From positions 1 to 64,000 of the forward strand of contig NZ_JSYN01000023.1 in NCBI RefSeq assembly GCF_000812965.1: a stretch of DNA of 64,000 nt, written 5' to 3'. The translations under genes were made by a program, and so were the position numbers. This DNA comes from Pedobacter kyungheensis. Lineage in GTDB: Bacteria; Bacteroidota; Bacteroidia; Sphingobacteriales; Sphingobacteriaceae. Of the stretch, positions 34,784 to 60,444 are shown piece by piece; within the stretch, counting starts at the first letter, position 1, and every line of letters begins with the position of its first letter. The notes below the pieces were generated by a model that ran no database searches, was not told the origin of the DNA, and saw nothing but the letters and a program-made list of their open reading frames with translations.

Positions 34784-34811
34784 AATATTATTTTTATATT
34801 TAAATAATATT
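34784..34811. promoter_or_regulatory. Shared AT-rich element, copy A (perfect inverted repeat)
   Basis: AATATTATTT and AAATAATATT form perfect 10-base arms around TTATATTT, 60 bases before the GH67/GH20-like gene and within the 354-base region divergent to the deoxyhexose operon. The pattern AATATT-N3-TTTATAT recurs at 51144, 53553 and 60417, each time upstream of a gene of this locus. It is a candidate operator. Confidence 0.5.
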
Positions 34812-34870
34812 ACAACCAAATATCATACAAAAGCCTAATTTTTAAGGCTTTGTTATAAGAGCCAAATTGA

Positions 34871-37606
34871 ATGAGAAAATTTCTGATTTTTATTTCCTGT
34901 TATTTTTTATCGATCTCGTTTTCAAGTGCTGCCAACCGCACGGATAAAAACATTTTAATATCTCCAGCTGCGCATGTAAGGGTAAAGTTTGGTGCAGACC
35001 AGGTTTTAAAAGCCTTGAACAAAATTGGTTATCAGACTAAAATAATACAACAGACAAAATCAGGAGCGGGCAAACCGGGCATTGTAATCGGCGTATTTTC
35101 TGATGCGGTTATGGCTGGAAAACTTCCGGCAGCCGTAAAAACCAAGGTAGCCGCCGCTAAAAAAGAAGCCTACACCATTTATACCGATAAAAACGGAACC
35201 ATTTATATAGCGGGTCATGATGCATCGGGCACTTTATATGGCTGCATCGAACTTGCCGACCAGATTAAAGACACTGGCAAGTTACCTGCGGCCTTATCGC
35301 TTACCGATCAGCCTGAAATGGTGTTACGTGGCACTTGTATCGGTTTGCAAAAGCCTGATTATTTACCCGGACACGATGTTTATGAATATCCGTATACTCC
35401 TGAAACTTTTCCCTGGCTTTACGATAAAGCTTTATGGATTAAGTACCTGGATATGATGGTGGAAAACCGCTACAACTCGCTTTACTTATGGAACGGTCAC
35501 CCGTTTTCTTCTTTATTGCGATTGAAAGCCTATCCTTATGCCGTAGAAGTAGACGATGCTACCCTCAAAAAGAACGAGGAAATTTTCAGGTTTTTAACAC
35601 ACGAAGCCGATAAACGTGGTATTTGGGTAATCCAGATGTTTTACAATATCATTATCCCTAAACCTTTTGCCGATAAACATGGCTTAAAAACGCAAGACCG
35701 TAACCGCCCGATTATCCCTTTAATTGCCGATTACACCCAAAAATCAATTGCAGCTTTTGTAGAAAAATACCCGAACGTAGGTTTAATGGTAGCTTTAGGC
35801 GAAGCCATGGAAGGAGTTGGGCAGGATGATATCGACTGGTTTACCAAAACAATTATCCCCGGCGTAAAGGATGGCTTAAAAGCTGCCGGTATAAAAGAAG
35901 AGCCGCCTATTGTATTGCGCGCACACGATACCGATGCGCCCAGCGTAATGAAAGCCGCTTTACCACTTTATAAAAACCTCTATACCGAGAATAAATTTAA
36001 TGGCGAAGCTTTAACTACTTACACGCCTCGAGGGGCCTGGGCAGAACTGAACCGTAAACTGGCTGCTATTGGCACGGTAAATATCTCAAACGTACACATC
36101 CTGGCCAATCTGGAACCTTTCAGATATGGATCTGCTGATTTTATCCAAAAATCGGTGCAAGCCATGAACAAGATTTATGGTGCCAAGGGTTTACACCTCT
36201 ACCCGCAAGCCAGCTATTGGGATTGGCCTTATGCTGCAGACCATGTAAAAGGCCGCTTGTTAGAAGTAGACCGCGACTGGATCTGGTACAAGGAATGGGC
36301 CCGGTATTCGTGGAATTCGCAAAGAGACCGCACGCAGGAAATAAACTATTGGGGCAAAGCATTGGCCGATAAATACGGCACCAGCTTAACTGGTGGCAAG
36401 GCCATTCTGAATGCTTACGAAGAATCGGGAGAAATTTCGCCCAAACTCCTGCGCCGGTATGGTATAACCGATGGCAACCGTCAAACTTTAACACTGGGCA
36501 TGTTAATGACGCAGCTGATTAATCCTTTCCGTTATGGCGTATTTACCTTAATGTACGAATCGGAAGCGCCAGAAGGAGAGATGATTATCGATTACGCCGA
36601 GAAAGAATGGAAAAAGCAAGGCCATATTGGCGAAACACCTGTGCAAATTGCCAAAGAGGTTGTAGCACATGGTCAGAAAGCTTTAGCCGCTATACAAAAC
36701 GCCGCCCCAACCGTAACCAAAGATACGGCAGAATTTAACAGGCTTAAAAACGACATGTATTGTTATGATGCCATGGCCAATTTTTATGCTGAAAAGGTAA
36801 AAGCAGCCCTTTGGATCTTACGCTATAAATACTCAAACCAAGTGGCCGATCTTGATCAGGCATTGCCTTTTCTTGAAAAAAGTGTAGCACACTATGCCAA
36901 CCTGGTTAAATACACCGAAAAAACTTATCTGTATGCCAACAGCATGCAAACCAAGCAGCGTAAAATCCCAATGCGTGGGGTGGATAAAACGTTTATTCAC
37001 TGGCGCGAAATGCTACCGGTTTTCACGAAGGAGCTTAATCATTTTAAACACAGTATCGATTCTTTAAAATCGGTTAAACAAGGAGAAACGGCTAAAATTA
37101 TTAATTACAAAGCTGCATCAGTGCAAGTTTTAAATCATACAGCCAGTTATACAATTGCTAAAGATGCTGTAGTTTTTAGCGATACTACCATTAAAATTAA
37201 AGAGGTTGCCGACGTGTTGCTGGGTTTAAAGGGCATTCAACTTTCCAAAACCAGCCAAATTAAAACCGGAACAGAAATTAAGTTTACTACCACGCAGCCC
37301 GTTAAATTGTTGATTGGCTTTTTTAACCAGAAAAACGCTGAATATCTGGCGCCACCACAACTGGAAACAGATGCAAGTGCCAATAATTATGGTCAATCGG
37401 AAATTAAGATATCGAATGCGCTGGTTGCAACAGGTTTTCCGCCGGTAAACGTACATGCTTACGCTTTCGCGGCAGGTACGCATACCTTAAATTTAGGCAA
37501 AGGAGCTTGTTTGGTACTGGGTTTTATTGATGACAAACAGGAACTGCGGATTTTCAACGCAGGTTTGGACGGACACGGAAAAGATATAGATTGGTTATTT
37601 GAATAA
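34871..37606 (+). CDS. Exported glycoside hydrolase-like protein (GH67/GH20-type N-terminal domain plus barrel)
   Basis: A 911-residue exported protein with signal peptide MRKFLIFISCYFLSISFSSA. Residues about 25-150 form an alpha/beta domain like those before the barrel in GH20, GH67 and GH115 enzymes (VIGVFSDAVM, YTIYTDKNGTIYIAGHDASGTLYGCIELADQ). A TIM-barrel-like region follows (LRGTCIGLQKP, DMMVENRYNSLYLWNG, VALGEAMEGVGQDDI, ILANLEPFRYG, LHLYPQASYWDWPYA), with Glu in ALGEAME and NLEPF as possible catalytic residues. A beta-rich C-terminal domain of about 150 residues closes the protein. Family and substrate are not certain; alpha-glucuronidase-like or a distinct family are both possible. 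The next gene starts within its stop codon (TAATG). Confidence 0.6.
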   Translation: MRKFLIFISCYFLSISFSSAANRTDKNILISPAAHVRVKFGADQVLKALNKIGYQTKIIQQTKSGAGKPGIVIGVFSDAVMAGKLPAAVKTKVAAAKKEAYTIYTDKNGTIYIAGHDASGTLYGCIELADQIKDTGKLPAALSLTDQPEMVLRGTCIGLQKPDYLPGHDVYEYPYTPETFPWLYDKALWIKYLDMMVENRYNSLYLWNGHPFSSLLRLKAYPYAVEVDDATLKKNEEIFRFLTHEADKRGIWVIQMFYNIIIPKPFADKHGLKTQDRNRPIIPLIADYTQKSIAAFVEKYPNVGLMVALGEAMEGVGQDDIDWFTKTIIPGVKDGLKAAGIKEEPPIVLRAHDTDAPSVMKAALPLYKNLYTENKFNGEALTTYTPRGAWAELNRKLAAIGTVNISNVHILANLEPFRYGSADFIQKSVQAMNKIYGAKGLHLYPQASYWDWPYAADHVKGRLLEVDRDWIWYKEWARYSWNSQRDRTQEINYWGKALADKYGTSLTGGKAILNAYEESGEISPKLLRRYGITDGNRQTLTLGMLMTQLINPFRYGVFTLMYESEAPEGEMIIDYAEKEWKKQGHIGETPVQIAKEVVAHGQKALAAIQNAAPTVTKDTAEFNRLKNDMYCYDAMANFYAEKVKAALWILRYKYSNQVADLDQALPFLEKSVAHYANLVKYTEKTYLYANSMQTKQRKIPMRGVDKTFIHWREMLPVFTKELNHFKHSIDSLKSVKQGETAKIINYKAASVQVLNHTASYTIAKDAVVFSDTTIKIKEVADVLLGLKGIQLSKTSQIKTGTEIKFTTTQPVKLLIGFFNQKNAEYLAPPQLETDASANNYGQSEIKISNALVATGFPPVNVHAYAFAAGTHTLNLGKGACLVLGFIDDKQELRIFNAGLDGHGKDIDWLFE

Positions 37607-39159
37607 TGATAAACACAAGAAATTTTATAGCCACAGCGGCATTATCGCTATGTGCTTTTACAGGCTTTACGCAGCAAAAAACGGTTATCGGAACAGATAA
37701 ACTGAAAAAGTATGTCACATACTTTAACTCTATTGATACTGAGGCTGTAAAAAACTACGTACCCAATGCCGAAGCCTTTACCTGGCTTTCGGGGCAGATT
37801 CCTTTATTCGAATGCCCGGACGAGGTGCTGGAGCAAAACTATTATTACCGCTGGTGGACTTACCGCAAGCATCTGGTAAAAACACCGGAGGGTTTCATTT
37901 TTACCGAATTTATAGAACCCGTAAAACATGCAGGTAAATACAATTCAATTAGCTGCGCTTTAGGTCACCATCTTTACGAAGGCAGGTGGTTAAAAGACAA
38001 TAGCTATTTGCAGGACTATGTGAAATTTTGGCTCTATCATGCTGATGTAGGTCAAACTAAGCAACGTTTTCACCAGTTTAGCAGCTGGGTTGATGATGCC
38101 GTATATCAAAACAGCCTGGTAAAACCCGATCAACAGTTCCTAAAAGAGATATTACCTGCATTGGATAAAGATTATGTGAAATGGGAATCGGAGCGGAAGC
38201 TTAAAAACGGTTTGTTCTGGCAAAACGATGTGAAAGACGGAATGGAGGAATCGATTAGCGGATCGAGGAAGGATCAAAACCAAAGACCGACCATTAACAG
38301 CTACATGTATGGCAATGCTATTGCTTTAAGTAAGCTCGGTAAAATGTTTGGCAACAATAGCTTAGTAACTAAATATAACCTTAAGGCCGATTCGATTAAA
38401 AAACTCGTACAGGATAGTCTTTGGAATCCAGCTTCAGCTTTTTTCGAGACCAGAAAGGCAAAAGGCGGACATGCTGAAGTTCGCGAAGCCATTGGTTTTA
38501 TTCCATGGGATTTCAATCTGCCAGACGATAAAGCCAGCTATGCAAAAGCCTGGGATCAGTTAGTGGATACCGCGGGCTTTAATGCACCCTGGGGCTTAAC
38601 AACCGCCGAACGCAGAAACCCAACATTCAGAACGCGCGGTACAGGGCACAGTTGCGAATGGGATGGTGCACTTTGGCCATTTGCCAGCTCGCAAACACTC
38701 AAAGGATTGGCCAATCTGCTTACCAATTATAAACAGCATGGTAAAATGAGCGCAGCCGTGTTCTATAAAGAATTACATAAATTCGCTGCATCGCATACCA
38801 AAAATGGCAAACCATATATCGGCGAATATCAGGACGAGAAGAATGGCGAATGGTTAAAAGGCGATAATCCGAGAAGCAGTTTTTATAATCACTCTACTTT
38901 TTGCGATTTGATTATCAACGATCTGGTTGGTATCAAACCACGTGAAGACAATACATTGGAAATTTACCCACTGATTCCCAAAAATCAATGGAATTGGTTT
39001 ATCCTCGATAATGTTTCTTATCACAACAAAACTTTAACGGTATTGTGGGATAAAACCGGAAACAAATACCACAAAGGCAAAGGGTTTTTAGTGTTTGCAG
39101 ATGGTAAAATGATTTTTAAAGGCAAAGATTTGAAACCTTTAAAAGTAGTGATGAATTAA
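37606..39159 (+). CDS. MGH1-like (alpha/alpha)6-barrel glycoside hydrolase
   Basis: A 517-residue exported protein (signal ending TGFTQQ) with the (alpha/alpha)6 toroid pattern of the MGH1-like/GH63-related group: YYYRWWTYRKHLVKTPEGF near the start, ALGHHLYEGRWL, SYMYGNAIALSKLG, then EAIGFIPWDF and the cluster GHSCEWDGALWPFASSQT, where acidic and Trp residues fit an active site. A short beta domain closes it (TVLWDKTGNKYHKGKGF). Its substrate within the pectin-like locus is unknown. It overlaps the preceding gene by one base, so the two products probably act together. The gap after it carries palindromic repeats. Confidence 0.65.
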   Translation: MINTRNFIATAALSLCAFTGFTQQKTVIGTDKLKKYVTYFNSIDTEAVKNYVPNAEAFTWLSGQIPLFECPDEVLEQNYYYRWWTYRKHLVKTPEGFIFTEFIEPVKHAGKYNSISCALGHHLYEGRWLKDNSYLQDYVKFWLYHADVGQTKQRFHQFSSWVDDAVYQNSLVKPDQQFLKEILPALDKDYVKWESERKLKNGLFWQNDVKDGMEESISGSRKDQNQRPTINSYMYGNAIALSKLGKMFGNNSLVTKYNLKADSIKKLVQDSLWNPASAFFETRKAKGGHAEVREAIGFIPWDFNLPDDKASYAKAWDQLVDTAGFNAPWGLTTAERRNPTFRTRGTGHSCEWDGALWPFASSQTLKGLANLLTNYKQHGKMSAAVFYKELHKFAASHTKNGKPYIGEYQDEKNGEWLKGDNPRSSFYNHSTFCDLIINDLVGIKPREDNTLEIYPLIPKNQWNWFILDNVSYHNKTLTVLWDKTGNKYHKGKGFLVFADGKMIFKGKDLKPLKVVMN

Positions 39160-39182
39160 GGCGATAATGCTGCCTAAGCCTG

Positions 39183-39306
39183 GGTTCGTGTCTACACGAA
39201 TCTAAACAATAATTATAATTAGCGATACAATCGCTTGACTCGCTCATCCTCGTTACAAACGAGGACGATTTAAAATAATTGAGAGATGCTGAAATAAATT
39301 CAGCAT
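39183..39306. repeat. Cluster of palindromic repeats between MGH1-like and GH28 genes
   Basis: Three elements stand in line: a TTCGTGT/ACACGAA hairpin (39185-39200, related to the one at 43797-43822), CTCGTT/AACGAG (39251-39265) and GATGCTGAA/TTCAGCATGACG (39286-39309, related to window position 1). The last supplies the ATG at 39305 that opens the longest GH28 frame. They may end or pause transcription inside the hydrolase operon. Confidence 0.65.
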
Positions 39307-39328
39307 GACGAAACTTTTAATAAAGCAG

Positions 39329-40906
39329 ATGAAATATTTAATCAGGACTTTAATTTTTGCAATAGCCTTAACAGGTTACCTCAGTGTTAATGCACAGGAA
39401 TACTACAATGTTATCAAATATGGGGCGAAAAACGACAGTAGTAAGCTGGCTACTACAGCCATTAAAAATGCCATCGATGCCGCTTCAAAAGCTGGTGGAG
39501 GTACCATTTATTTCCCTGCAGGTAAATATTTAACAGGTCCAATCCATTTAAAAAGCAATATTACCATTTTGATTGATGCCGGAGCAGAACTGCATTTTAG
39601 CGATAACTTCGATGATTACCTTCCGATGGTTAAAAGCCGCTACGAAGGGGTAGATGTAACCAGTTTTTCGCCTTTGTTTTATGCCTATAAAGCCGAAAAT
39701 ATCTCGATTATTGGCCGTGGTATTATTGATGGTCATGGCAAAAAATGGTGGGATTTTGTTGAAGGTTATAAAGAAGGTCAGCCAATCTCCAAATGGCAAA
39801 CCACCTTTGCCAGTCTGAATAAGGATATCATTTTACCTGATGATCCCAAACAAATGAAACGTGGCTTTTTACGTCCGCCGTTTATTCAGCCTATGTTTTG
39901 CAAAAACGTGCTGATAGATGGCATTACCATTCGCAATTCACCATTCTGGACAATTAATCCGGAGTTTTGCGAGAATGTGAAAGTTCATGCGGTAACAATA
40001 AACAATCCGCATTCGCCAAATACCGACGGTATTAACCCCGAATCGTGTAAAAACGTTCATATTTCCGATTGCCACATCAGCGTGGGAGACGATTGTATCA
40101 CCATTAAATCGGGTAAAGATGCGCCAGGCAGGAAAATGGCAGCTCCGGCCGAAAACTATGTAATTACCAATTGTACCATGCTCTCAGGTCATGGCGGTGT
40201 GGTAATTGGCAGTGAAATGTCGGGCGATGTACGCAAAATAACCATTTCCAATTGCGTGTTCGATGGAACCGATCGGGGTATCCGCATTAAAACCGCACGC
40301 GGAAGGGGTGGTGTAGTGGAGGAAATCAGGGTGAGTAATATCATCATGAAAAATATCCGCGAGCAAGCCATTGTACTCGATATGCAATACGCTAAAACCA
40401 ACGTTGAACCTGTGTCAGCACGTACACCCGCATTCCGGAATATTCATTTCGCCAATATTACCGGGCAGGTAAACCAGGCAGCCTATTTAAACGGGCTGGA
40501 AGAAATGCCCATCAGCAACATTACTTTTAACGACATCAACCTTGATGCGAAAAGCGGTTTTTCGATTGGAAATGCTACGGATATCGAACTACACAATGTA
40601 ACCGTTAATACGCAAATTGGCCCTGCAGTAAAAGCCACTCAAGTAAGCAACCTGATTATAGATGCTTTAAAAAGTTACAAAGTGCCTGCAAACGCCGCTG
40701 TAATTGATTTAACCAATGTTTCTGACCTATTTTTATACAATGCTTTTCCTGCAGCCGAAATAAATACTTACCTGAAATTGAGTGGTGCTGAAACCAAAAA
40801 CATATTTTTAGGCAACAATAATTTCAGAAGGGTGAAAATGCCTGTTAAAAAAGAAAAAGAAGTAACGGCCACCGTTGAAATTATTTCAGGCGACAAAGGA
40901 CAATAA
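39329..40906 (+). CDS. Glycoside hydrolase family 28 (polygalacturonase-like)
   Basis: From the ATG at 39329 a 525-residue exported GH28 enzyme with signal peptide MKYLIRTLIFAIALTGYLSVNAQ. The right-handed beta-helix core carries all signature motifs: NTDGINPESCKNV, the two catalytic Asp in SVGDDCITIKSG, GHGGVVIGSEM and RGIRIKTARGRGG. GH28 enzymes hydrolyse alpha-galacturonide or, in some members, rhamnogalacturonan links, so pectin is the expected target. The longer frame from 39305 starts inside a dispersed palindromic repeat and puts eight residues before the signal peptide, so it is rejected as the start. Confidence 0.94.
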   Translation: MKYLIRTLIFAIALTGYLSVNAQEYYNVIKYGAKNDSSKLATTAIKNAIDAASKAGGGTIYFPAGKYLTGPIHLKSNITILIDAGAELHFSDNFDDYLPMVKSRYEGVDVTSFSPLFYAYKAENISIIGRGIIDGHGKKWWDFVEGYKEGQPISKWQTTFASLNKDIILPDDPKQMKRGFLRPPFIQPMFCKNVLIDGITIRNSPFWTINPEFCENVKVHAVTINNPHSPNTDGINPESCKNVHISDCHISVGDDCITIKSGKDAPGRKMAAPAENYVITNCTMLSGHGGVVIGSEMSGDVRKITISNCVFDGTDRGIRIKTARGRGGVVEEIRVSNIIMKNIREQAIVLDMQYAKTNVEPVSARTPAFRNIHFANITGQVNQAAYLNGLEEMPISNITFNDINLDAKSGFSIGNATDIELHNVTVNTQIGPAVKATQVSNLIIDALKSYKVPANAAVIDLTNVSDLFLYNAFPAAEINTYLKLSGAETKNIFLGNNNFRRVKMPVKKEKEVTATVEIISGDKGQ

Positions 40907-40907
40907 C

Positions 40908-43724
40908 ATGAAATTTAAATTTTTACTTGGCACTTTAATTTTAGGAGTAACCATTCACTCGAATGGATGGGCACAAGAAAACAACCATACTTTGTGGTAC
41001 AATAAACCTGCAGAAAAATGGACAGATGCATTACCGATTGGTAATGGTCGCATTGGCGCGATGCTTTTTGCTGGTACTATGGTTGATCATATCCAGTTTA
41101 ACGAAGAAACGCTGTGGACCGGAAAGCCAAGAGATTACAACCGCAAAGGTGCCTATAAATATTTAAACGATATTAGAGAACTGCTTTTTGAAGGGAAACA
41201 AAAAGAAGCCGAAACGCTTGCACAAGCACAGTTTATGGGCCTACAAAGCGAAGCCGGAGACAAAAATACCTGGGTAAACGAGATGAAAGCTGGTAAAGGC
41301 TTAACTGGTAATCCGGCATTGGCTAATTTCGATGACAAAAACTGGAAAACCCTTCAGGTACCTGCTTTTGATGGCTGGGAAACGGTTGGATTAGCCAATT
41401 TAGATGGAGCAGTTTGGCTGAGAACTACTTTCAATGTGCCCGCAAACTGGAGTGGAAAAGATTTGGTGCTCGATCTTAACCGTGTTCGCGATCAGGATTT
41501 TACCTACATTAATGGCACACTGGTAGGCAATACCGATAATACCGAACCGAGAAAATATACCATCCCGGCAAAACTGATTAAAACAGGCAGCAATAGCATC
41601 GCGATTCAGGTGCTTAACTATGCCGATAAAGGCGGATTGGTTGGTTATAAAGATACCAGCAAGAAAATTGGTATTTATCCGGTAGGATCAGATATTACGC
41701 AAGGAGTTTCACTGGAGAAAGCATGGAAATATAAAATACAAGATGAAAATCCACCTGCTATACCACAATACCAGGGCAGCTATCAACCCTTCGGCGATTT
41801 AAACCTATACTTTAAACTTACTAAATCGCTGGTACGCAATTACAAGCGATCGCTTGATATCAGCACAGCGGTTGCTAAAACTACCTTCACCAGCAATGGG
41901 GTAAACTATCAGCGCGAATATTTGGCCAGTCAGCCCAACCAGGCCATAGTTATTCAATTAACTGCCGATAAACCTAAAGCTATCAGTTTCGATGCCGAAT
42001 TATCAAGCCCGCACCGTAAATCGTCGATAAAGGTACTTGATAAACAAACGCTGGCGCTAAGTGTACAGGTAAAAGATGGTGCATTAAAAGGAGAAAGCAG
42101 GTTAACAGCTATTGTTAAAAAAGGCAGTTTAAAATTTGTAAACGGAAAAATCACTGTAAATCAGGCCGATGAAGTAACACTTTATTTAACTGCAGGCACC
42201 AATTTTATTAACGCGCAGGATGTTTCGGGCTCACCAGCTACCGCCAATGTTAAGGCATTAAACAGCCTGAAAGGGAAAACCTATGCTGAAATTAAGCAGA
42301 ACCACATTAAAGAATATCAGCAATACTACAACACGTTTGAGGTTAGTTTTGGTCGTTCGGAGAATGAAAAATTACCCACTGATGAACGCCTGGAAAAATT
42401 CGCAAGCGCTAACGATGCTGCCTTTGCAGCTTTGTACATGCAGTATGGCCGTTATTTGTTAATCTCGAGCTCAAGGCCCGGCACCCAGCCAGCCAACCTG
42501 CAAGGTATCTGGAACGATTTATTAACCCCACCATGGGGCAGTAAATACACCACCAACATTAACCTGGAAATGAATTATTGGCCAACAGAAGTTTTAAACT
42601 TATCGGCTTTAAACGAGCCTCTATTCCAGAAAATTAAAGGCTTAACCAAAACTGGTAGCGAAACAGCCAAAACATATTACAACGCAAGGGGATGGGTACT
42701 ACACCATAATACCGATTTATGGAACGGAACTGCTGCTATAAATGCCTCTAATCATGGCATCTGGATGAGCGGTGCGGCCTGGTTAAGTCAGCATTTATGG
42801 GAACATTACCAGTTTAGCCAGGACAAGAAATTCCTCGAAACAGAAGCTTACCCTTCGATGAAACAGGCAGCCTTGTTCTTTGTAGATTTTTTGGTAAAAG
42901 ATCCTAAAACAGGTTGGCTAATCAGTACGCCATCTAACTCACCCGAAAATGGAGGTTTGGTAGCCGGACCAAATATGGATCACCAAATTATCCGCTCACT
43001 TTTTAAAAATTGTATTGCGGCTGCCGATGTACTCCATATTGATGCAGATTTCAAAAAAACGCTACAGGAAAAGCTAAAACAACTGGCTCCTAACCAGATT
43101 GGTAAATATGGCCAGTTGCAGGAGTGGCTAACTGACAAAGACGATACGACCAATAAACACCGTCACGTTTCGCATTTGTGGGGTGTTTATCCGGGCAACG
43201 ACATTACCTGGGATGGTGATGCTAAAATGATGCGGGCGGCAAAGCAATCGCTTTTGTATCGCGGAGATGACGCCACCGGCTGGAGTTTAGCCTGGAAAAT
43301 AAATTTCTGGGCACGCTTTAAAGATGGCGATCATGCCATGAAACTGGTGAAAATGTTAATGAAACCAGCCAATAACGGGGCCGGATCTTACGTAAATCTT
43401 TTCGATGCGCATCCACCGTTTCAAATTGATGGCAATTTTGGCGGATCAGCCGGGATAGCCGAAATGATTATGCAAAGCCATCAGGGCTATCTTGATATTT
43501 TACCCGCTTTGCCAACGGCGATGCCTACGGGTAACATCAAAGGTTTACAAGCCAGAGGCGGTTTTGAGGTAGATTTAACCTGGGATAAAGGTACATTAAC
43601 TTCATTTACCCTTAAATCTAAAACCAGTGGAGATTGCAGGTTGCATTATAAAAATTTAGTGGTAGAACTGCATACCAAAGCAGGCGAAGCCTATAAACTG
43701 AACGGAGATTTGAAATTGCTTTAA
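40908..43724 (+). CDS. Glycoside hydrolase family 95 with an inserted jelly-roll domain
   Basis: A 938-residue exported GH95 enzyme (alpha-L-fucosidase/alpha-L-galactosidase family). The N-terminal beta domain has LWYNKPAEKWTDALPIGNGRIGAMLFAG; the (alpha/alpha)6 catalytic region has QPANLQGIWNDLLTPPWG, TNINLEMNYWP (N-x-N), TPSNSPENGG with the probable general acid Glu, HRHVSHLWGVYPG and QIDGNFGGSAGIAEMI with Asp. Between residues about 130 and 270 lies an extra domain (FDDKNWKTLQVP, WLRTTFNVPANW, YTIPAKLIKTGSNSIAIQVLNYADKGGLVG) like the jelly roll of GH2 or sialate O-acetylesterase proteins, which most GH95 members lack. Start chosen at 40908 because the longer frame begins inside GH28. Confidence 0.93.
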   Translation: MKFKFLLGTLILGVTIHSNGWAQENNHTLWYNKPAEKWTDALPIGNGRIGAMLFAGTMVDHIQFNEETLWTGKPRDYNRKGAYKYLNDIRELLFEGKQKEAETLAQAQFMGLQSEAGDKNTWVNEMKAGKGLTGNPALANFDDKNWKTLQVPAFDGWETVGLANLDGAVWLRTTFNVPANWSGKDLVLDLNRVRDQDFTYINGTLVGNTDNTEPRKYTIPAKLIKTGSNSIAIQVLNYADKGGLVGYKDTSKKIGIYPVGSDITQGVSLEKAWKYKIQDENPPAIPQYQGSYQPFGDLNLYFKLTKSLVRNYKRSLDISTAVAKTTFTSNGVNYQREYLASQPNQAIVIQLTADKPKAISFDAELSSPHRKSSIKVLDKQTLALSVQVKDGALKGESRLTAIVKKGSLKFVNGKITVNQADEVTLYLTAGTNFINAQDVSGSPATANVKALNSLKGKTYAEIKQNHIKEYQQYYNTFEVSFGRSENEKLPTDERLEKFASANDAAFAALYMQYGRYLLISSSRPGTQPANLQGIWNDLLTPPWGSKYTTNINLEMNYWPTEVLNLSALNEPLFQKIKGLTKTGSETAKTYYNARGWVLHHNTDLWNGTAAINASNHGIWMSGAAWLSQHLWEHYQFSQDKKFLETEAYPSMKQAALFFVDFLVKDPKTGWLISTPSNSPENGGLVAGPNMDHQIIRSLFKNCIAAADVLHIDADFKKTLQEKLKQLAPNQIGKYGQLQEWLTDKDDTTNKHRHVSHLWGVYPGNDITWDGDAKMMRAAKQSLLYRGDDATGWSLAWKINFWARFKDGDHAMKLVKMLMKPANNGAGSYVNLFDAHPPFQIDGNFGGSAGIAEMIMQSHQGYLDILPALPTAMPTGNIKGLQARGGFEVDLTWDKGTLTSFTLKSKTSGDCRLHYKNLVVELHTKAGEAYKLNGDLKLL

Positions 43725-43727
43725 AAC

Positions 43728-47300: not shown

Positions 47301-47398
47301 GATAAGATGGTACAATATGTAGCCAAAATCTTATATGAAAACTGTTTTTTAGAGATGCATATTTGTTTTAACCAAATTAATAAACGAGCCAACCAATA

Positions 47399-48967: not shown

Positions 48968-49024
48968 AATCCGGAAGGTTAAATCGGGCAATTATTTAGG
49001 ACAATTTTATCACATCAGAATACA

Positions 49025-49957: not shown

Positions 49958-49974
49958 TTTTTACTTTGTTGTGG

Positions 49975-50000: not shown

Positions 50001-50006
50001 CCAACC

Positions 50007-50073: not shown

Positions 50074-50086
50074 CTTCCAGATAACC

Positions 50087-50956: not shown

Positions 50957-51143
50957 GATTTTAATAAAAACATTTGGTTAGGATTGCCTTTCAATGTTGG
51001 TGAGCGCATTAATTGCAACAGCCTAATTTAGGTACTAAAATGATAATATCCTATATTAATTTGATAAAAAACATTATAAAATGGTGTATTTCATTACAGA
51101 TTTTTGTATAGAGGCCGTATGGCATAACCAAATTAACAAATAG

Positions 51144-51169
51144 CATATTATTTTTATATAAATTATATG
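51144..51169. promoter_or_regulatory. Shared AT-rich element, copy B (near-perfect inverted repeat)
   Basis: CATATTATTT and AAATTATATG arms with one mismatch around TTATAT. ATATTATTTTTATAT is identical to copy A over 15 bases. It ends 14 bases before the FucI-like start codon and lies in the divergent AraC/FucI region. Confidence 0.5.
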
Positions 51170-51183
51170 TTCATTAATAAAAT

Positions 51184-52821: not shown

Positions 52822-52834
52822 AAAATATAAAGAA

Positions 52835-53503
52835 ATGAAATCACAAATTTTAGCCCTGTTCTTAATGTTCTCCGTTACAACGGTAGTTTTTGCTCAAAAT
52901 AATGCCGTTGCAGATAAGGCTGCCTATACCAAAACCATTACCGAGCGTGCCGCTAAAATTGTAAATACCCTGGGTATCAACGACAGCAAAAAGGCTGAAA
53001 AGGTTACCAATATCATTAGAGATCAGTACAGCAACCTGAACGATATTTATACTGCCAGAGATCTTGAAGCGAAAGACATCAAAGAGAAAAACAAAGATAA
53101 TAAGGTATTGCGCGATTCGGCTTTGGCTAAACAAAACCGCGCAGTAGATGCGTCGCTGGCTAAGCTCCACAAAAAATACATTAACAAATTGGCTGACCAG
53201 TTAAACAATGAGCAAGTTGAGGGCGTAAAAAATGGTATGACTTACGGTGTACTACCACTTACCTATAAAGCTTACCAGGAAGAAATACTGACTTTAACTG
53301 AAGAGCAGAAAAAGCAAATCCTGGTTTGGTTAACTGAAGCACGCGAACGTGCCATGGATGCAGAATCATCGGATAAAAAACATGCCTGGTTCGGCAAGTA
53401 CAAAGGCCGCATCAACAATTACCTTTCTGCTGCTGGTTACGACCTGAAAAAAGAAGGCATAGAATGGGAAAAAAGGCGCAAAGCAAAGGCTCAGGGCAAT
53501 TAA
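52835..53503 (+). CDS. DUF3826 family exported protein
   Basis: From the ATG at 52835 a 222-residue protein with signal peptide MKSQILALFLMFSVTTVVFAQ. The mature part is highly helical and charged (KAAYTKTITERAAKIVNTLGI, VDASLAKLHKKYINKLADQLN, LTEEQKKQILVWLTEARERAMD), matching the DUF3826 family found in Bacteroidota pectin and rhamnogalacturonan loci. Function is unknown. The longer frame from 52796 overlaps the FucI-like gene and puts 13 residues before the signal peptide. It is 13 bases from the FucI-like gene, in one transcript. Confidence 0.75.
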   Translation: MKSQILALFLMFSVTTVVFAQNNAVADKAAYTKTITERAAKIVNTLGINDSKKAEKVTNIIRDQYSNLNDIYTARDLEAKDIKEKNKDNKVLRDSALAKQNRAVDASLAKLHKKYINKLADQLNNEQVEGVKNGMTYGVLPLTYKAYQEEILTLTEEQKKQILVWLTEARERAMDAESSDKKHAWFGKYKGRINNYLSAAGYDLKKEGIEWEKRRKAKAQGN

Positions 53504-53552
53504 TTCCTATTGGTTGTAATGCCCTAAAATTTTTTACCATTTTTTATTTAAG

Positions 53553-53580
53553 AATATTTCATTTATATATGAATTTATTT
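53553..53580. promoter_or_regulatory. Shared AT-rich element, copy C, 445 bases before susC
   Basis: AATATTTCATTTATATATGA followed by AT-rich sequence, with the internal inverted repeat TTCAT-TTATAT-ATGAA. ATTTATATATGAAT is identical to copy D at 60425-60438. TATCTTGTATCAG a few bases on may be the -7 box; it recurs as TAACTTGTACTCAG after copy D. Confidence 0.5.
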
Positions 53581-53594
53581 ATATCTTGTATCAG

Positions 53595-53997: not shown

Positions 53998-56900
53998 ATG
54001 AACTTAAAATTTCTACGTAAATTATCCTGGGTTTTGTTGCTCCTGACGATGATCAGTACCACGTTGTTGGCTCAGCAACGGCAAATTACGGGTAAGGTTG
54101 TCGATAAGAAAGACGGTCAGCCTGTTCCCGGCGTTACCGTTGGTATACGCGGCAAAACCAATAATGTAAGTACCAATGATAAAGGTGAATTTGCATTGGT
54201 AGCCGATCCCTCAACCGATGCATTGGTTTTCTCTTATGTAGGTTACACCAGACAGGTGATTCCGCTGGCCGGCAAAACCAATATTACGGTAAGCTTTGTT
54301 GAAGATTCCAAAAATTTGGATGAAGATGCTGTTGTGGTAATTGGTTACACCACCAAAAAAAAATCAGAAATTCTTGGTGCTGTAGCAACTATAAGTGGTG
54401 CTGAAATTCAGGATGTTCCAGCTCCGAATTTGGCAGGCGCATTAAGAAATAGAGTAGCCGGTGTTGGTGTAAGTCAAACTTCCGGACGTCCGGGTTCGCC
54501 AATTACTTTAAACATTAGGAATTCTACAACCACCACTGCAGCAGCCGGTACTACTGACGAGCCGCTTTACGTGGTAGATAATATTACAGTAACCAGAGAT
54601 GCTTTCGACAATATCGATGCTTCTATGATAGAGAACCTAACCTTTTTAAAGGATGCTTCAGCTGCAATTTATGGGGCCGCCGGTGCAAAAGGTGTTATCT
54701 TAGTCACTACAAAAAAAGGCAGGATTGGTAAACCAAGTATAACCTACAACGGTTATTTAGGTATTTCTGATGCGATTAAGGTACCCAAAATGTTATCTGC
54801 TTATGAGCATGCCTCATTACTAAATGATACTTACCGTTCGCAAGGTGCAGCAGCATCAGAATACTTCGCTCCTGAAGATTTAGAATACATTAAAACGCTT
54901 GATTATAAAAGCTGGTACGATGAAGTTTGGCAGGCAGCTACCACACAGAGACATAATATAGGTATTTCTGGTGGCAGTGATAAAATTACCTTTTTTGCCG
55001 GAGGAAGTTATCAGGGTGAAAATGGAAACTATGCCGGAATGAAATTTAATAAATATTCGTTCAGAAGTGGTGTGGTGGCAACAGTAGCCAATGGCTTAAA
55101 AGCCGATGTTAACTTTAACGTTGATTATGGCACTAAAGAACTACATCATAATGCTCAAGATAATGATGCACCTTTTTTTGAAAGACTGATAACCATTCCA
55201 AGATGGGTTCCAATTAGTATTGATGGAAAATATGTGAACTATAACGTAAACGGAGTAAACACTGCCAATATCAATCCTTTAGCTATTTCCGAATCTGGTT
55301 ATTACAATAATGGTTCAAATAAATCATACCGCATCAATGCTTCATTAACTTATGAGCCAACTTTTCTGAAAGGGCTTGTACTTAAGGGCCAGATTTCGCA
55401 ATCAAGCGGCTCGTCAAAAAACACGCAATACGTTCCACCTTTTACCTTATATAACTTTGTTAAGCGAGGTAATAACCAGGAATTGTTTACCAATCAGTTA
55501 CCAACTGCTACAGCGCCTACTTTTCAGCCAACTACAGCAACAAGTGCAAACTTTACACCTGGATTAAGCGATAATAACAGCTACCAGTTTTTCTTAACAC
55601 TTCAATACAATAAAACCATTGCTAAACACAGCTTTAGTGTTTTAGCCGGTGCTGAGCAAAGCGAAGGTAATTCACAAAATTCTGCTGTCCGTTATACCAA
55701 TCAACTTATTCCGGGGGTAGATCAGTATTTTGCTTTTGATGTCAACACTTTGGTGGCATCAAATTTAGATCGAACAGCAGTTTCCAAACGTTCAGGTTTT
55801 GCCCGCTTTAGTTATGATTTTGATAAGAAATACCTGGTTGAAGGTATTGCCCGTATCGACGCGTCATCTAACTTCGCTTTAGGTAACCGCTGGGGCGTAT
55901 CACCTAATATCGGTATTGGATGGGTAGTAAGTCAGGAAAAGTTCTTTAAAAACAGTAACGCCCTTAGTTTTATCAATTTCTTAAAATTAAAAGCAAATGT
56001 TGGTATTACCGGTGACGACAGGGTTGGTGTTCGTTTATGGCAGGATCGTTTCCAGATTGATGTAACCAATGGATACATATTCGGGAATACCAATGGAAAT
56101 AGTTTGAACCGTTCGCGCCTGGCTAACCCTGATATTACCTGGGAAAAGAAGAGAACAATTAACGTGGGTTTAGAAACTTCGATGTTTAACAACAAATTAG
56201 ATATCAGTATTGAGGCATTCCAGAACTATACTTACGATGGTTTCGAACTAGGCGCAAATAATCAATACCCACAATATTTCGGTACTCAGGCGCCCGTGTT
56301 AAATTACAGACAACTTTATAACTGGGGCTCCGAATTTACTATTGGTTATAAAGCAAAACTTGCAACAGATTGGAACCTTAGTGCCAGCATGAATTTCTCT
56401 TATGGTAATTCAGTTACCGACAGAATACTTTACACACCGGGTAACTTAATTAACAATACCTTTCCTAACTTACAATTGTTCGGAACCGATCCACGCAAGT
56501 ACAATACCAGCAACTATGGATTGAAAAATCTAGGTATGTTCAGAACACAAGGCGAAGTTGATGCCTGGATGGCGAAATATCCGAACTACAGGATCTACGA
56601 TAAAATTCCTCAACCGGGATGGCTTTACTACGAAGACACTAATGCTGATGGGGTAATTTCTGATAGTGATTTGGCTCCGATGTATAATAATACCAATCCA
56701 TTTTTGTCTACTGGTATCTCATTAAACTTAAGCTATAAAAACTTCAGTTTAAACACGAATATCAATGCCAGGTTTGGTGGTAAAATTTTCTATGACAGCA
56801 GAGCCAGAACAGCTCCATCAAAAACCAGAAACACCCTGACTATCTGGCAAGACCGTTGGACAATAGATAATCCAATGGAGGGTAAATATCCTAGATTCGA

Positions 56901-57159
56901 TGATCCGTCATTAGGAATAAACTCAGATTTCTGGGCAGTTGACGGAACCATGATTCGTATCAATACCATGACGTTGAGTTATAAAGCACCTACTGCTTTT
57001 GCAAACAAACTAGGAATCAATGGTGCCCGCATATTATTAACAGGAAATAATCTTTGGACGATTGTAAATCCTTTGCCTTACAAAGATCCATATACTTCAA
57101 GTGCGTGGGATTACCCAATGTTGAGGACGATCTCTTTAGGATTAAGTGTTAACCTATAA
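53998..57159 (+). CDS. SusC/RagA family TonB-linked outer membrane protein
   Basis: A 1053-residue porin without an STN domain. Signal peptide (to LLAQ), carboxypeptidase-like regulatory domain at about residues 27-110 (ITGKVVDKKDGQPVPGVTVGIRG), TonB-box-like VVVIGYTTKKKSEILGAVATI, plug domain with LYVVDNITV and the SusC marker DASAAIYGAAGAKGVILVTTKKG, then a 22-strand barrel region ending LRTISLGLSVNL. It imports oligosaccharides with its SusD partner 10 bases downstream. The absence of an STN domain means control is not through a FecR anti-sigma factor, in line with the shared AT-rich element upstream. Confidence 0.95.
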   Translation: MNLKFLRKLSWVLLLLTMISTTLLAQQRQITGKVVDKKDGQPVPGVTVGIRGKTNNVSTNDKGEFALVADPSTDALVFSYVGYTRQVIPLAGKTNITVSFVEDSKNLDEDAVVVIGYTTKKKSEILGAVATISGAEIQDVPAPNLAGALRNRVAGVGVSQTSGRPGSPITLNIRNSTTTTAAAGTTDEPLYVVDNITVTRDAFDNIDASMIENLTFLKDASAAIYGAAGAKGVILVTTKKGRIGKPSITYNGYLGISDAIKVPKMLSAYEHASLLNDTYRSQGAAASEYFAPEDLEYIKTLDYKSWYDEVWQAATTQRHNIGISGGSDKITFFAGGSYQGENGNYAGMKFNKYSFRSGVVATVANGLKADVNFNVDYGTKELHHNAQDNDAPFFERLITIPRWVPISIDGKYVNYNVNGVNTANINPLAISESGYYNNGSNKSYRINASLTYEPTFLKGLVLKGQISQSSGSSKNTQYVPPFTLYNFVKRGNNQELFTNQLPTATAPTFQPTTATSANFTPGLSDNNSYQFFLTLQYNKTIAKHSFSVLAGAEQSEGNSQNSAVRYTNQLIPGVDQYFAFDVNTLVASNLDRTAVSKRSGFARFSYDFDKKYLVEGIARIDASSNFALGNRWGVSPNIGIGWVVSQEKFFKNSNALSFINFLKLKANVGITGDDRVGVRLWQDRFQIDVTNGYIFGNTNGNSLNRSRLANPDITWEKKRTINVGLETSMFNNKLDISIEAFQNYTYDGFELGANNQYPQYFGTQAPVLNYRQLYNWGSEFTIGYKAKLATDWNLSASMNFSYGNSVTDRILYTPGNLINNTFPNLQLFGTDPRKYNTSNYGLKNLGMFRTQGEVDAWMAKYPNYRIYDKIPQPGWLYYEDTNADGVISDSDLAPMYNNTNPFLSTGISLNLSYKNFSLNTNINARFGGKIFYDSRARTAPSKTRNTLTIWQDRWTIDNPMEGKYPRFDDPSLGINSDFWAVDGTMIRINTMTLSYKAPTAFANKLGINGARILLTGNNLWTIVNPLPYKDPYTSSAWDYPMLRTISLGLSVNL

Positions 57160-57169
57160 TTTTTGAGCA

Positions 57170-59056
57170 ATGTTTAAGCAAATAAAAAACAATATAAAAA
57201 AGGCTGTAGCTATCTTAAGTTTAGCAGCACTTTTGCCGGCTTGTGTAAATAAAGATGAATTTTTCTTATTGCCAGATACCGGAGGTATCGATCAGGCCAT
57301 CTGGGATAACGAAGGTTCTGTACAACTACACCTGAACAGGGTTTACGATGTAGCCATGTATCAATTCCCTTTGCAGCTAACACCAGATCGTTATGGTGTT
57401 CATTATGCCAGCGATGAAAACTATTTTCCGGATGGTGATGCCAATGCAAAAGCTGCCCTTGGCTTACAGGGTGTATTGGGAAATAACGATGTGAGATATA
57501 CCGGAAATACCTATGGCGGTAATCCTGGCAATAATAAGTACTGGGATATTGCCAGATGTAATGATGCTATTGCCAATCTTCCGAACAGTACGATGGCAAC
57601 CCCTAAGAAAAATGAACTGCTTGGACAGTACTATGCATTGAGGGCAATTACCTATTTCGAATTGGTTAAAGTTTATGGAGGTGTTCCGCTTCCACTAACA
57701 CCACAGGGAGCCGACAGTATTTATGATGAAGGTAGAAGGCCTGCCAAAGAATGTTTTGCGGCGATATTGAGTGATTTGAACAACGCAATTGCTTTATTGG
57801 ACGGTTTTGCACCAGATGATAATAGCGGAAGAGGTAAAATTACCAAGCTAATTGCCACTTGTTTAAAAGCAAAAGTGTTGTTCTATTGGGCTAGTCCTCA
57901 ATTCAATCCGACCAATGATGCCAAGCATCCTTATCAGGCATCGAGATGGACTGATGCTTTAACCGTTAATAAGGAAGCTTACGATATGTGCGTTTCGGCA
58001 GGGAAAAAATTAATGCCAAATTATCTGGATATTTTTCGGGTAGAAGGTACCAACAACACTGAGGCAATTCTCGTTAGGACTTATTCAAATACGGTACCCA
58101 ATAGAGGTAATGGAACAGAACAGCGTGTTAGACCAACATCTGAAGGTGGAAGCCCTAACACCTATTTTATGCCCACAACAAAAATGTTGGATGCCTACCC
58201 GATGAAAGATGGAAAACCACTAAATACTTCTACTGCTTTTCCGTATGATGCGACCATGTTCTGGCAAAATAGGGATCCGAGGTTTGAAGCAACTTTTGCT
58301 ACAAACGGATCAGTGTATCCTTTGAGTGGAAATACAAATAGAAAACAATGGAATTATAACTTAGCAGTTGGTGAGAGTAATGGAAATGCGGTGTATGTTA
58401 AACGTTTTTCTACACCTACCTTAACAGCAAGTGCTTCTGTTTACAATAGCTCAGTAGGTGGAGGAAGTGGTATGGATTGGATTGAACTTAGGTTTGCAGA
58501 GGTAATGTTAAATTATGCCGATTGTTTGAATGAAACCGGAAATATAGCAGGTGCAAAAGATTTGGTGAGACAAATTCGCGTTAGAGCAGGAGTGGTAGCA
58601 GGCGATGCCGATTACGGACTTGCGCTGGCAGGAAGTACCCCTCAACTACGCAACTTAATTCTTAATGAAAGACAAATTGAATTCGCTTTCGAAAATAAAC
58701 GTAATTCAGACTTGAGAAGATCGCGCACCATGCACTTGCTAACAGGGAATATGTCTAAACTGGAAATTCAATTAGTGAACCCTCCTGTAGGAGCAGACCT
58801 GAAAGATAAAAAGGTATTGGAAGATCCAACAGTTCCCGGAGGTACAACCGCTTTTAGAGAAACTTTAAACATTAACGATAAGGCTACTTATACCAAATAT
58901 TTTAAGAACGTTGTAATTACTAATACCACTTATTTACCATATAACGTACCTGAGTTTCACTATTTCTATACCTTCCATAATGATTTTGTAAGTTTTGGTA
59001 ATAAAATTTTGCCAACAATTGGATGGGCCGGAGGTACATTTGACCCCCTTGATTAG
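57170..59056 (+). CDS. SusD/RagB family nutrient-binding lipoprotein
   Basis: A 628-residue SusD with lipobox ALLPAC. Family marks are NKYWDIARCNDAIANLP, LLGQYYALRAITYFELVKVYGGVPL with its TPR helices, WIELRFAEVMLNYADCLNETGN and LILNERQIEFAFENKRNSDLRRS. It is longer than the first SusD (524 residues), mainly in loops, suggesting a larger or more branched ligand. Co-transcribed with susC and followed after 42 bases by another lipoprotein gene. Confidence 0.95.
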   Translation: MFKQIKNNIKKAVAILSLAALLPACVNKDEFFLLPDTGGIDQAIWDNEGSVQLHLNRVYDVAMYQFPLQLTPDRYGVHYASDENYFPDGDANAKAALGLQGVLGNNDVRYTGNTYGGNPGNNKYWDIARCNDAIANLPNSTMATPKKNELLGQYYALRAITYFELVKVYGGVPLPLTPQGADSIYDEGRRPAKECFAAILSDLNNAIALLDGFAPDDNSGRGKITKLIATCLKAKVLFYWASPQFNPTNDAKHPYQASRWTDALTVNKEAYDMCVSAGKKLMPNYLDIFRVEGTNNTEAILVRTYSNTVPNRGNGTEQRVRPTSEGGSPNTYFMPTTKMLDAYPMKDGKPLNTSTAFPYDATMFWQNRDPRFEATFATNGSVYPLSGNTNRKQWNYNLAVGESNGNAVYVKRFSTPTLTASASVYNSSVGGGSGMDWIELRFAEVMLNYADCLNETGNIAGAKDLVRQIRVRAGVVAGDADYGLALAGSTPQLRNLILNERQIEFAFENKRNSDLRRSRTMHLLTGNMSKLEIQLVNPPVGADLKDKKVLEDPTVPGGTTAFRETLNINDKATYTKYFKNVVITNTTYLPYNVPEFHYFYTFHNDFVSFGNKILPTIGWAGGTFDPLD

Positions 59057-59098
59057 TCTTTAAAGAACAGATGTTTCAGTTGATTAAAAATTAAAATA

Positions 59099-60085
59099 AT
59101 GAAAACTAGATATATTAATAAGTTACTCATCGGGTTGTGTGTGATTCTTTTTGCATCATGTAAAAAGGAATCGGCAAACATATTTAACATGTTCGAAGAT
59201 GTTACTGTAACTTTCAACAATAGCGATCCGCGTTGTGTTACCGATTATAAAGTAATTAACGACAAAGAAGAGGTATGGATTGATTTTACCATTAACTCTG
59301 CTAAAGAAGATATGTACTCTTACATATTTGAAGTTTCTGCAGGTACAGCGCAAGCAACTCGTTATACAGTTGCAATTACCGATCCTACCCAGCGCAGAAA
59401 TTTTTCATCAATTATAAAACTTCCTAATAGTGCTTTCCCGGCAGCAGCGCTTCGTGATGGCAAACAAAGCTATCGGATTTGTGCCTTGAATGAAAAGGGA
59501 ATATATATTGGCGATGGTTACAAAAAAGTAACTGTTGATGTAAATCCAAGTTTTATGATTTATGCCAACAGGGATATTTATTTACCAGATACTGTGGGTA
59601 AAAGTTTACCAAGCTTTTTCTCACTTACTGATGCAACAGGTTTTAGTTATACAAACGCAGCAGCTAATGCAGCGAAGATAGATTTTGGGATCTATAGAAA
59701 ACCTGGTTCCAATACTACTGTACAAACACCAACCTGGGTAGTTAATTTATACTCCCCAAGTGTAGCTACTAATCCATTAACAGTTTATGATATTAGTGGT
59801 TTTAGCCCAAAGAGAACCACTAAGTTTAGCCAGCCAGTTACCGGACAAGCAAATGCATTTCTGACAACAGCAATTTCAGGCTCTTCAATAGAGACTTTAG
59901 CGAAAGCAAGGGTAATTACTTTTAACGAAACTACCCAAGCTGCTCCGGCTAATGGGTTGGCAGCAGGTAACGCAGTGTTTTTCCTTACTCCTGAAGGCAA
60001 GTATGGTATGCTGTATATTAATGCGGTTACTTCTGATTTACAGAAGCGGCCTTTCATTAACGTGAGCATAAAAGTACAACGCTAA
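59099..60085 (+). CDS. Surface lipoprotein downstream of SusD, unrecognised family
   Basis: A 328-residue lipoprotein with lipobox LFASC. The mature part is beta-rich: an N-terminal Ig-like section (VTVTFNNSDPRCVTDYKVIND, VWIDFTINSAKEDMYSYIFEVSAG), a middle part with PDTVGKSLPSFFSLTDATGF and a C-terminal part ending YGMLYINAVTSDLQKRPFINVSIKV. Position after susD matches the surface glycan-binding proteins (SusE/SusF-like) that help capture polysaccharide. No known domain could be named. A strong terminator follows at 60141-60176. Confidence 0.6.
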   Translation: MKTRYINKLLIGLCVILFASCKKESANIFNMFEDVTVTFNNSDPRCVTDYKVINDKEEVWIDFTINSAKEDMYSYIFEVSAGTAQATRYTVAITDPTQRRNFSSIIKLPNSAFPAAALRDGKQSYRICALNEKGIYIGDGYKKVTVDVNPSFMIYANRDIYLPDTVGKSLPSFFSLTDATGFSYTNAAANAAKIDFGIYRKPGSNTTVQTPTWVVNLYSPSVATNPLTVYDISGFSPKRTTKFSQPVTGQANAFLTTAISGSSIETLAKARVITFNETTQAAPANGLAAGNAVFFLTPEGKYGMLYINAVTSDLQKRPFINVSIKVQR

Positions 60086-60140
60086 TTAAAGCATCACCCG
60101 GCGGGTAACACCGCCACAATTTTATATATTTGGTTAGAAG

Positions 60141-60176
60141 AAAAAGGGAGCAGCGAGTGCTCTCTTTTTTTGTTTT
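60141..60176 (+). terminator. Rho-independent terminator after susCD-lipoprotein operon
   Basis: AAAAAGGGAGCA and TGCTCTCTTTTT arms (one wobble pair) around GCGAG, then TTGTTTTT. Confidence 0.9.
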
Positions 60177-60416
60177 TACACTACACTAAATACAAAATCT
60201 GACCAAAACATTCCCTTTGTGCAGCTATAATTCTCCATTAGCAACCTCTCTTCTATACCAAAACTCCCGTATTTAAGCTTGAATCTTAAAATAGTTATAA
60301 AAATACCTGTTTTACTTTTGTAATTCTTTCTTTACCAAAGTCTCCAAATAAACGTCTAAACAACGTTTTAAATAGCTCAAATGTTAAATTTTAAAACTTT
60401 AACACTTTTTTATTTA

Positions 60417-60444
60417 AATATTGTATTTATATATGAATATAATA
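60417..60444. promoter_or_regulatory. Shared AT-rich element, copy D, 425 bases before the third susC
   Basis: AATATTGTATTTATATATGA with AT-rich continuation; the same TTTTTATTTAA precedes it and CTTGTA follows it as at copy C, so the similarity spans about 55 bases between the two susC promoters. Confidence 0.5.

Follow-up and report, generated by a model that had tools for sequence, protein, structure and literature searches.

A conserved tandem element in a rhamnogalacturonan-II-type locus of Pedobacter kyungheensis is the likely operator of an IclR-family regulator

Introduction

Characterised polysaccharide utilization loci (PULs) have mostly been described under the control of hybrid two-component systems (HTCSs), SusR-like regulators or extracytoplasmic function (ECF) sigma factors. 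Here we describe a recurrent DNA element in a PUL of Pedobacter kyungheensis which, judged by its sequence and distribution, most likely belongs to a new regulon of the IclR family, a kind of system that is known but was not expected in such a place. The stretch analysed, referred to below as the window, is the first 64,000 nucleotides of one contig (C16:1-64000) of the 6.36-Mb genome; the gene cluster to which it belongs was examined over 135 kb.

Many IclR-family transcription factors are predicted to act on tandem palindromes 18–22 nt apart, mainly 19–21, an arrangement that agrees with tetramer binding; one of their motif groups is A/T-rich, and these regulators, which form 94 orthologous groups, are generally autoregulated and control adjacent operons (PMC8222616). 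The element described here resembles such sites in having two palindromes, in this case 19 apart, and in standing beside an iclR gene. It differs in that its half-site, TTYATATWTRAA, equals neither of the consensus sequences GKTYCRYW3-4RYGRAMC and TGRAACAN1-2TGTTYCA published there, and in that its copies extend over 71 kb and to an unlinked locus. The KdgR regulon of gamma-proteobacteria offers a further parallel, with an IclR-family regulator, A/T-rich palindromic operators and pectin-degrading genes (PMC8222616). The KdgR entries 5y6i and 1ysp are among the 11 Protein Data Bank sequence matches of the IclR protein studied here, but the similarity is weak (E 6.5e-9 to 5y6i), the loci here are Bacteroidota susCD loci, and the KdgR operator RWWGAAACGNCGTTTCAKKA (PMC8222616) differs by eye from our half-site. 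We do not regard the protein as a KdgR orthologue, although it may work like KdgR.

The direct-repeat motifs of HTCSs in Bacteroides PULs, like the sites here, stand in tandem before several units of a PUL (PMC3878776). They differ in their period, which averages 21 bp there and is 19 bp here, while our sites have near-palindromic halves and are linked to the gene of a soluble IclR-family protein. The present cluster can be linked to the rhamnogalacturonan locus BT0977-1030 of Bacteroides thetaiotaomicron (PMC3878776); that locus holds an HTCS, BT0981, in place of the IclR and AraC regulators found here. A published figure shows xylan loci, Bacteroidota among them, with one gene labelled as IclR-family; the passages on it assign no function (PMC12125979). 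Our literature search, with subscription journals mostly outside its coverage, found no paper on IclR control of a PUL.

Results

A 31-bp tandem site recurs in the cluster

The preliminary description of this DNA had pointed to a short word, AATATT-N3-TTTATAT, in front of four transcription units and had proposed a common operator or activator site. Exact copies of the word stand at 34784, 53553 and 60417, and the copy at 51144 has one mismatch. When up to one mismatch is allowed, the window holds six matches (two of them elsewhere) against 0.80 ± 0.84 in shuffled sequences. The recurrence is real, but the word by itself failed the genome-wide comparison, giving 70 matches with up to one mismatch in 6.36 Mb against 67 for the reversed control. 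Three of its seven exact matches lie in this locus. Because there was no enrichment over the control, we discarded the short core as a motif.

The element that we describe instead is a longer site, TTYATATWTRAA-N7-TTYATATWTRAA, which is 31 bp long and consists of two near-palindromes with a period of 19 bp from centre to centre. A gap-free alignment of 31 columns gave this period in all of the 24 chosen sites, with halves that are near-palindromic but not perfect. By eye, the half-site resembles IclR group 1 (the outer part, TTC..GAA) with a shorter centre. The four copies first seen, here A to D (Table 1), carry the features attributed to them: 15 identical bases and inverted arms in A and B, and ATTTATATATGAAT followed by CTTGTA in C and D, at a spacer of 10 in C and 11 in D. 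One register of the conserved site accommodates copies A, C and D, whereas for B the register at 51144 was replaced by 51151 after matrix scoring. ATTTATATATGAAT has exactly three copies in the 6.36 Mb, all in this locus (C16 53561, 60425 and 66020), the third belonging to a site E beyond the end of the window.

In a genome-wide scan with a model of the full site, in which 150 of 7663 first-look candidates were scored, the best seven matches were E, C (22.8 bits, rank 2), D (20.6 bits, rank 3), A (rank 4), F, G and B. Six of them fall in this cluster, over 71 kb, and the seventh, G, occupies the unlinked gap between gltB and a transaldolase gene. A common operator for several transcription units is thus strongly supported, all the more as the full 31-bp site is kept in orthologous loci. 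What had been noticed was a real regulatory element, to which three further sites have to be added and for which the binder and the register of B have to be corrected.

The site accompanies an IclR-family gene

From these comparisons we consider it likely that the element is the operator of a single IclR-family transcription factor, encoded at C16:105253-106023. The protein matches PF09339 (HTH_IclR, E 1.6e-9) and PF01614 (IclR_C, E 4.2e-21). To follow the site and the gene together we used 145 congeneric genomes (labelled G), scoring IclR as present at E up to 1e-50 and the tandem pattern with up to one mismatch. The pattern matched 64 genomes (reversed control, 3), and 62 of these are among the 64 IclR-positive ones; both features were absent from 79, and four genomes were discordant (G094, G143, G104 and G125), which gives a Fisher value of 6e-36 with the kinship of the genomes ignored. 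Seventy-nine of the 81 IclR-negative genomes had no tandem match anywhere, G104 had one weak site elsewhere, and in G125 one of two matches was unlisted. Within the 65 genomes bearing an RG-II (rhamnogalacturonan-II) marker (PF24067 at E below 1e-20, which leaves out the weaker matches of G123, G138 and G140), IclR predicts the site (60/0 vs 1/4, p = 7e-6).

The site also stands beside the gene itself. Site F was found in 61 of the 64 iclR gaps of the genus. Among 151 genomes of the family we found 11 iclR orthologues in other genera (45–70% identity), and every one has a tandem site starting 74–314 bp upstream, at 21.7–38.5 bits, which exceeds the best score in 100 shuffled versions of that gap; the gene divergent from iclR varies there, being SusC-like, GH78-like or another according to the translations. 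Of 51 named iclR loci, which largely overlap the genus sample, 49 have a site that scores 21 bits or more in the 450 bp upstream; the misses (L375 and L380) correspond to G094 and G143. With three exceptions (Hufsiella, Desertivirga and Dyadobacter) these relatives are recorded as Pedobacter, and the site of Dyadobacter koreensis (IclR 56% identical) is weaker, at 21.0 bits. In three genomes (G005, G116 and G131) iclR and the GH78 gene are separated by an inserted susCD pair, and a site is kept at both ends; since the iclR end keeps its own site, this points to an operator of iclR itself. The stretch NEIYRML in the helix-turn-helix domain of the protein is the same in each of 17 orthologues compared, while identity in the C-terminal domain falls to 37%.

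Site G is present in our genome and in all of the 11 IclR-positive genomes that were fetched because they matched there; its association with IclR has a Fisher value of 2.9e-5, or 2.4e-4 if the unlisted match of G125 is G.

The site is conserved in relatives

A scan of the 145 genomes for ATTTATATATGAAT-N11-CTTGTA with up to two mismatches matched 46 genomes, many with two copies 5–7 kb apart, against 20 single matches for the reversed control; seven of the 46 looked like chance matches and were set aside by eye (G017, G035, G036, G042, G071, G099 and G118). When 58 distinct N11-spaced sites were aligned, the kept stretch exceeded the search word, with TTTATTYAAGAATRTTNC before it and TAYCTTGTA after it; in this alignment the middle 12–13 bases and part of CTTGTA had been selected for, and the left flank had not. 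A scan with a variable gap gave 76 matches in the genus against 3 for the reversed control, returned exactly C, D and E in our genome, and contributed seven of the genomes that make up the final element list of 46 (G027, G028, G045, G074, G085, G091 and G124). IclR was found in all 46 genomes of this list and AraC in 44; the co-occurrence counts over 145 genomes are independent of the choice of the list. In G064 an element-like match followed by TAACTTG (G064:C29:127095-127120) and the RG-II cluster lie on different contigs.

The remaining sites are conserved too. Site A is kept with small changes in 8 of 8 aligned gaps of the 13 loci first compared, and the score of B is no lower than 24 bits in 11 of these 13, G031 and G047 being the exceptions, with a matrix trained on B sites too. 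Site C is identical over about 36 bp between G061 and G073 although the flanks differ.

How the sites fare against nulls, and what weighs against the IclR assignment

A matrix built from C, D and E sites only (42 non-redundant of 61) and applied to the 135 kb scored A at 16.3 bits, next after C, D, E and the reverse strand of E. It scored F at 15.1 bits on the minus and 12.6 on the plus strand, and B, in a shifted register, at 14.5 bits on the minus and -4.2 on the plus strand; the largest value in 20 Markov sequences of 135 kb was 10.0. Leave-one-class-out scoring used nulls of 40 x 135 kb and a harder null of 50 x 20 kb of AT-rich intergenic sequence. Site D scored 37.0 bits (null maximum 23.8; AT-rich null 24.7), a score that is not independent since the right half of D is common to C and E, and C scored 28.3 (25.3; 27.3). 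B, though weak, was still the best remaining site in the 135 kb, the next scoring 7.5 bits.

Several observations weigh against the assignment and have to be set beside its support. The class-balanced matrix was trained on the same sites that it ranks, the sites are AT-rich, and B and F score better on the minus than on the plus strand with the C/D/E-only matrix. In the leave-one-class-out test A (26.9 bits; null maximum 22.7) and F (23.0; 21.6) fall just below the largest single value of the AT-rich null (27.1 and 23.1), E (24.9) falls just below the largest value of the first null (25.3; AT-rich null 27.3), and B, the weakest member at 15.6 bits, lies inside all of them (largest 22.0). For A, B and F, conservation is stronger evidence than the matrix scores. 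The co-occurrence statistics ignore kinship. Both G094 and G143 carry IclR but lack a site beside the gene as well as a strict tandem match, and only weaker sites were found in their gltB/transaldolase gaps (19.4 and 15.8 bits). G125, a genome 75% complete, has sites and no IclR match. Finally, in G110 and G037, whose RG-II clusters carry a diverged IclR, only F was found in the 40 kb fetched; G037 has one more site near araC, just beyond that stretch.

Mode of action

Since the halves stand in tandem at 19 bp from centre to centre, two IclR dimers, together a tetramer, would be placed along the same face of the DNA, across the two near-palindromes; this spacing fits the geometry of the IclR family rather than that of HTCSs. 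The protein is probably a repressor like KdgR that also controls its own gene, and we infer the direction of control from where the sites lie: repression is favoured because their positions vary and mostly overlap predicted promoter boxes. Within the left half of A, TATATTTG (34776-34783) agrees with TAnnTTTG, the -7 consensus of Bacteroidota (cited in PMC7366714), and at F, too, a half-site contains this match. The operator would thus overlap a -7 box at A and F, while at C, D and E it would lie just upstream of TAnCTTG, over the -33/spacer region. The same promoter-overlap argument for repression has been made for KdgR of Caldicellulosiruptor (PMC8579813).

That the IclR protein binds the element as an activator in contact with RNA polymerase is possible, though we judge it rather unlikely. 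The family includes activators (PMC8222616), by eye there is no consensus TTTG at -33 in C, D or E, and the fixed spacing at C to E makes activation conceivable: over the 76 genus matches, the gap from the right half-site to the -7 box TAnCTTG is 9 in 50, 8 in 8, 7 in 6 and 10 in 5 (69 of 76 at 7–10), and exactly 19 in 4, with 15, 21 and 27 once each. This tight spacing, together with the exact 10-bp jump in one clade by which the helix face is kept, would suit an activator and so counts against repression. The four gap-19 genomes (G027, G028, G091 and G124), with IclR proteins of 81–84% identity, may however represent one event, and the -7 match within a half-site at A and F, the place of B just before a start codon and the varied positions suit a repressor.

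As a repressor, the IclR protein would hold the hydrolase operon, the FucI/DUF3826 unit and two susCD operons (A to D) under one control. Site E would bring into the regulon an operon with a putative pectate lyase, an apiosidase and a BT_1020-like protein; F would add the GH78 gene and, as it adjoins iclR, autoregulation; and G would tie the regulon to the gltB/transaldolase gap. Release would be expected, as with KdgR, from a small molecule formed when pectin or RG-II is broken down, perhaps an intracellular rare RG-II sugar or keto-sugar acid. If an intracellular product is sensed, outer-membrane uptake of RG-II would be switched by a cytoplasmic metabolite.

Other candidate binders

The AraC-family protein encoded at 50087 had been named in the preliminary description as the nearest candidate binder; we rejected it, and consider it very unlikely to bind the element. 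In its favour, the protein is encoded in the cluster at each of the 13 loci of the first comparison, with 90–100% identity, mostly above its neighbours (susC 2 has 32–92% over the other 12 loci), and over the 145 genomes (AraC scored at E below 1e-100) AraC and the site occur together in 59, AraC alone in 13, the site alone in 5 and neither in 68. Within the RG-II-marker genomes, however, AraC does not predict the site (59/3 vs 2/1, p = 0.18). The decision rests on genomes in which the two are uncoupled. In G061 and G073, where the clusters share the loss of a block of sodium:solute symporter family (SSF), DHDPS, AraC and FucI genes, there is no AraC match at E 1e-60 and yet A, B, C and E are kept in the cluster and F at iclR, B having outlived both AraC and FucI; IclR is present in both. 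G006 has only a 44% AraC paralogue and keeps A- and F-type sites. Conversely, G100, G115 and G139 have AraC (69–71%) and no IclR, and no site above 12 bits was found in the 26, 32 and 40 kb fetched. The same was true of the RG-II cluster stretch fetched from G093, which has neither regulator. Model matches of 16.6–18.7 bits in G093, G139 and G115 were set aside, as they lie inside a GH28-like coding region.

Next to araC, the intergenic gap contains a conserved repeat of another kind (51042-51070; Table 1), whose period is 21 bp; it is most changed in G002 and is a candidate site of the AraC protein itself. The conservation of AraC is unusually strong for a local regulator, and a search of viral contigs with AraC gave no matches. 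In G012 (L167) and G125 (L282) a strong tandem site (34.5 bits) stands 7–8 bp ahead of the start of the AraC gene, as would be expected if araC were under IclR control in these genomes.

A hybrid two-component regulator encoded outside the window, the alternative first put forward, is highly improbable as the binder. Among the PUL regulators of Bacteroides, HTCSs form a major class (PMC11253607), and the motif of BT0981 was not predictable (PMC3878776), but a direct repeat of about 21 bp is not what we see, the halves are near-palindromic, and the distribution of the site follows iclR. No HTCS-like gene was seen in the 135 kb, where open reading frames were read and part of the genes compared with Pfam; that search covered this stretch of the genome. 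The NrtR-type AraR-like protein encoded at 26932 was also considered and dropped, since the text consulted on the Bacteroides AraR gave no comparable consensus.

Least credible is a sigma-factor promoter element or a set of shared AT-rich promoter words with no specific regulator: the sites do lie at promoters, with a -7-like word within half-sites of A and F, but 31 bp are kept although the flanks diverge, the tandem pattern is missing from 79 of the 81 genomes that lack IclR, and the distance to the -7 box shifts by 10 in one clade, for which reason a sigma -35 element was rejected.

The RG-II-type cluster and its transcription units

By its gene set the cluster is a rhamnogalacturonan-II-type PUL. 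We take the families expected in BT0977-1030 to be a BT_1020-like propeller, apiosidase, GH95, GH2, GH28, GH106, GH127 and a GH141 domain, and all of them were matched in the cluster, as was SusD_RagB, twice. In addition to the genes in Table 1, Pfam matched DUF6298, the apiosidase, a GH43-like protein, the BT_1020-like propeller (PF24067) and a SASA esterase, and, in the far part of the cluster, GH78-type rhamnosidases, the GH141 insertion domain, GH92, GH106 and GH127.

Table 1. Tandem sites, predicted promoter boxes, regulators and presumed target units. Positions are those of the window, or of the contig where C16 is given.
Feature	Position	Strand	Remarks
Site A	34774..34804	+	Upstream of hydrolase operon (34871 onward)
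Site B	51151..51181	+	Ends 3 bp before FucI-like start codon (51184); register 7 bases from 51144
Site C	53543..53573	+	Upstream of susC 2 (53998)
Predicted -7 box TATCTTG, promoter C	53582..53588	+	Gap 8 from right half-site
Site D	60407..60437	+	Upstream of susC 3 (60842)
Predicted -7 box TAACTTG, promoter D	60447..60453	+	Gap 9 from right half-site
Site E	C16, ATTTATATATGAAT copy at 66020		Outside window; before putative pectate-lyase gene C16:66309
Site F	Same contig		Outside window; between iclR and GH78
Site G	Contig 37		Unlinked gltB/transaldolase gap
iclR	C16:105253-106023	-	Far end of cluster, outside window; divergent from GH78, with F in between
AraC-family regulator	50087..50956	-	Pfam HTH_18 and HTH_AraC
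Conserved block GATAAYATCCTATATTAATTTGATAAAAA	51042..51070		AraC-FucI gap; GATAA twice, 21-bp period; 13-locus alignment
Presumed target of A	34871..49957	+	Extent inferred from gene spacing; 34871 (no Pfam match), MGH1-like/GH65C, GH28, GH95, GH2 with malectin, SSF transporter, DHDPS-like (Pfam)
Presumed target of B	51184..53503	+	FucI-like 51184-52821, DUF3826 52796-53503 (Pfam)
Presumed target of C	53998..60085	+	susC 2, susD 2, 328-aa protein without Pfam match
Presumed target of D	60842..64000, on to contig position 64084	+	susC 3, then susD 3
Gene downstream of E	C16:66309		No Pfam match; "putative pectate lyase" from reading of sequence

Around the susC/susD genes of the 53998-60085 region, pairs seem to have been swapped, lost or replaced among relatives, with the promoter element staying put. 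By eye, the susC 2 leader (53600-53720) contains the possible hairpins AAGCGA...TCGCTT and ACACCTT...AAGGTGT, and the block of the first hairpin recurs in G070 and G031. The word CTAACCAAA has five copies in the window (53981, 60584, 60826, 50981 and 60137), three of which stand 7–16 bases before a start codon; by eye, TTTGGTT also occurs ahead of terminators at operon ends. Elsewhere in the window, 26932-27630 encodes a NUDIX and NrtR_WHD protein with an AraR_C match that resembles Bacteroides AraR; an L-arabinose isomerase gene lies at L069:13037-14530.

Discussion

On balance we favour the view that one soluble, autoregulated IclR regulator, and not a membrane HTCS, controls the RG-II locus in Pedobacter and its relatives together with the gltB/transaldolase gap. 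What we see here is an RG-II-type locus that seems to answer to a cytoplasmic protein of the IclR family, one with a readable operator. With this operator the regulon, its extent (62 of 145 genomes) and its inducer become open to direct tests, and a further target, gltB/transaldolase, is predicted beyond the PUL. If this is true, a single protein may govern how the most complex plant pectin is broken down.

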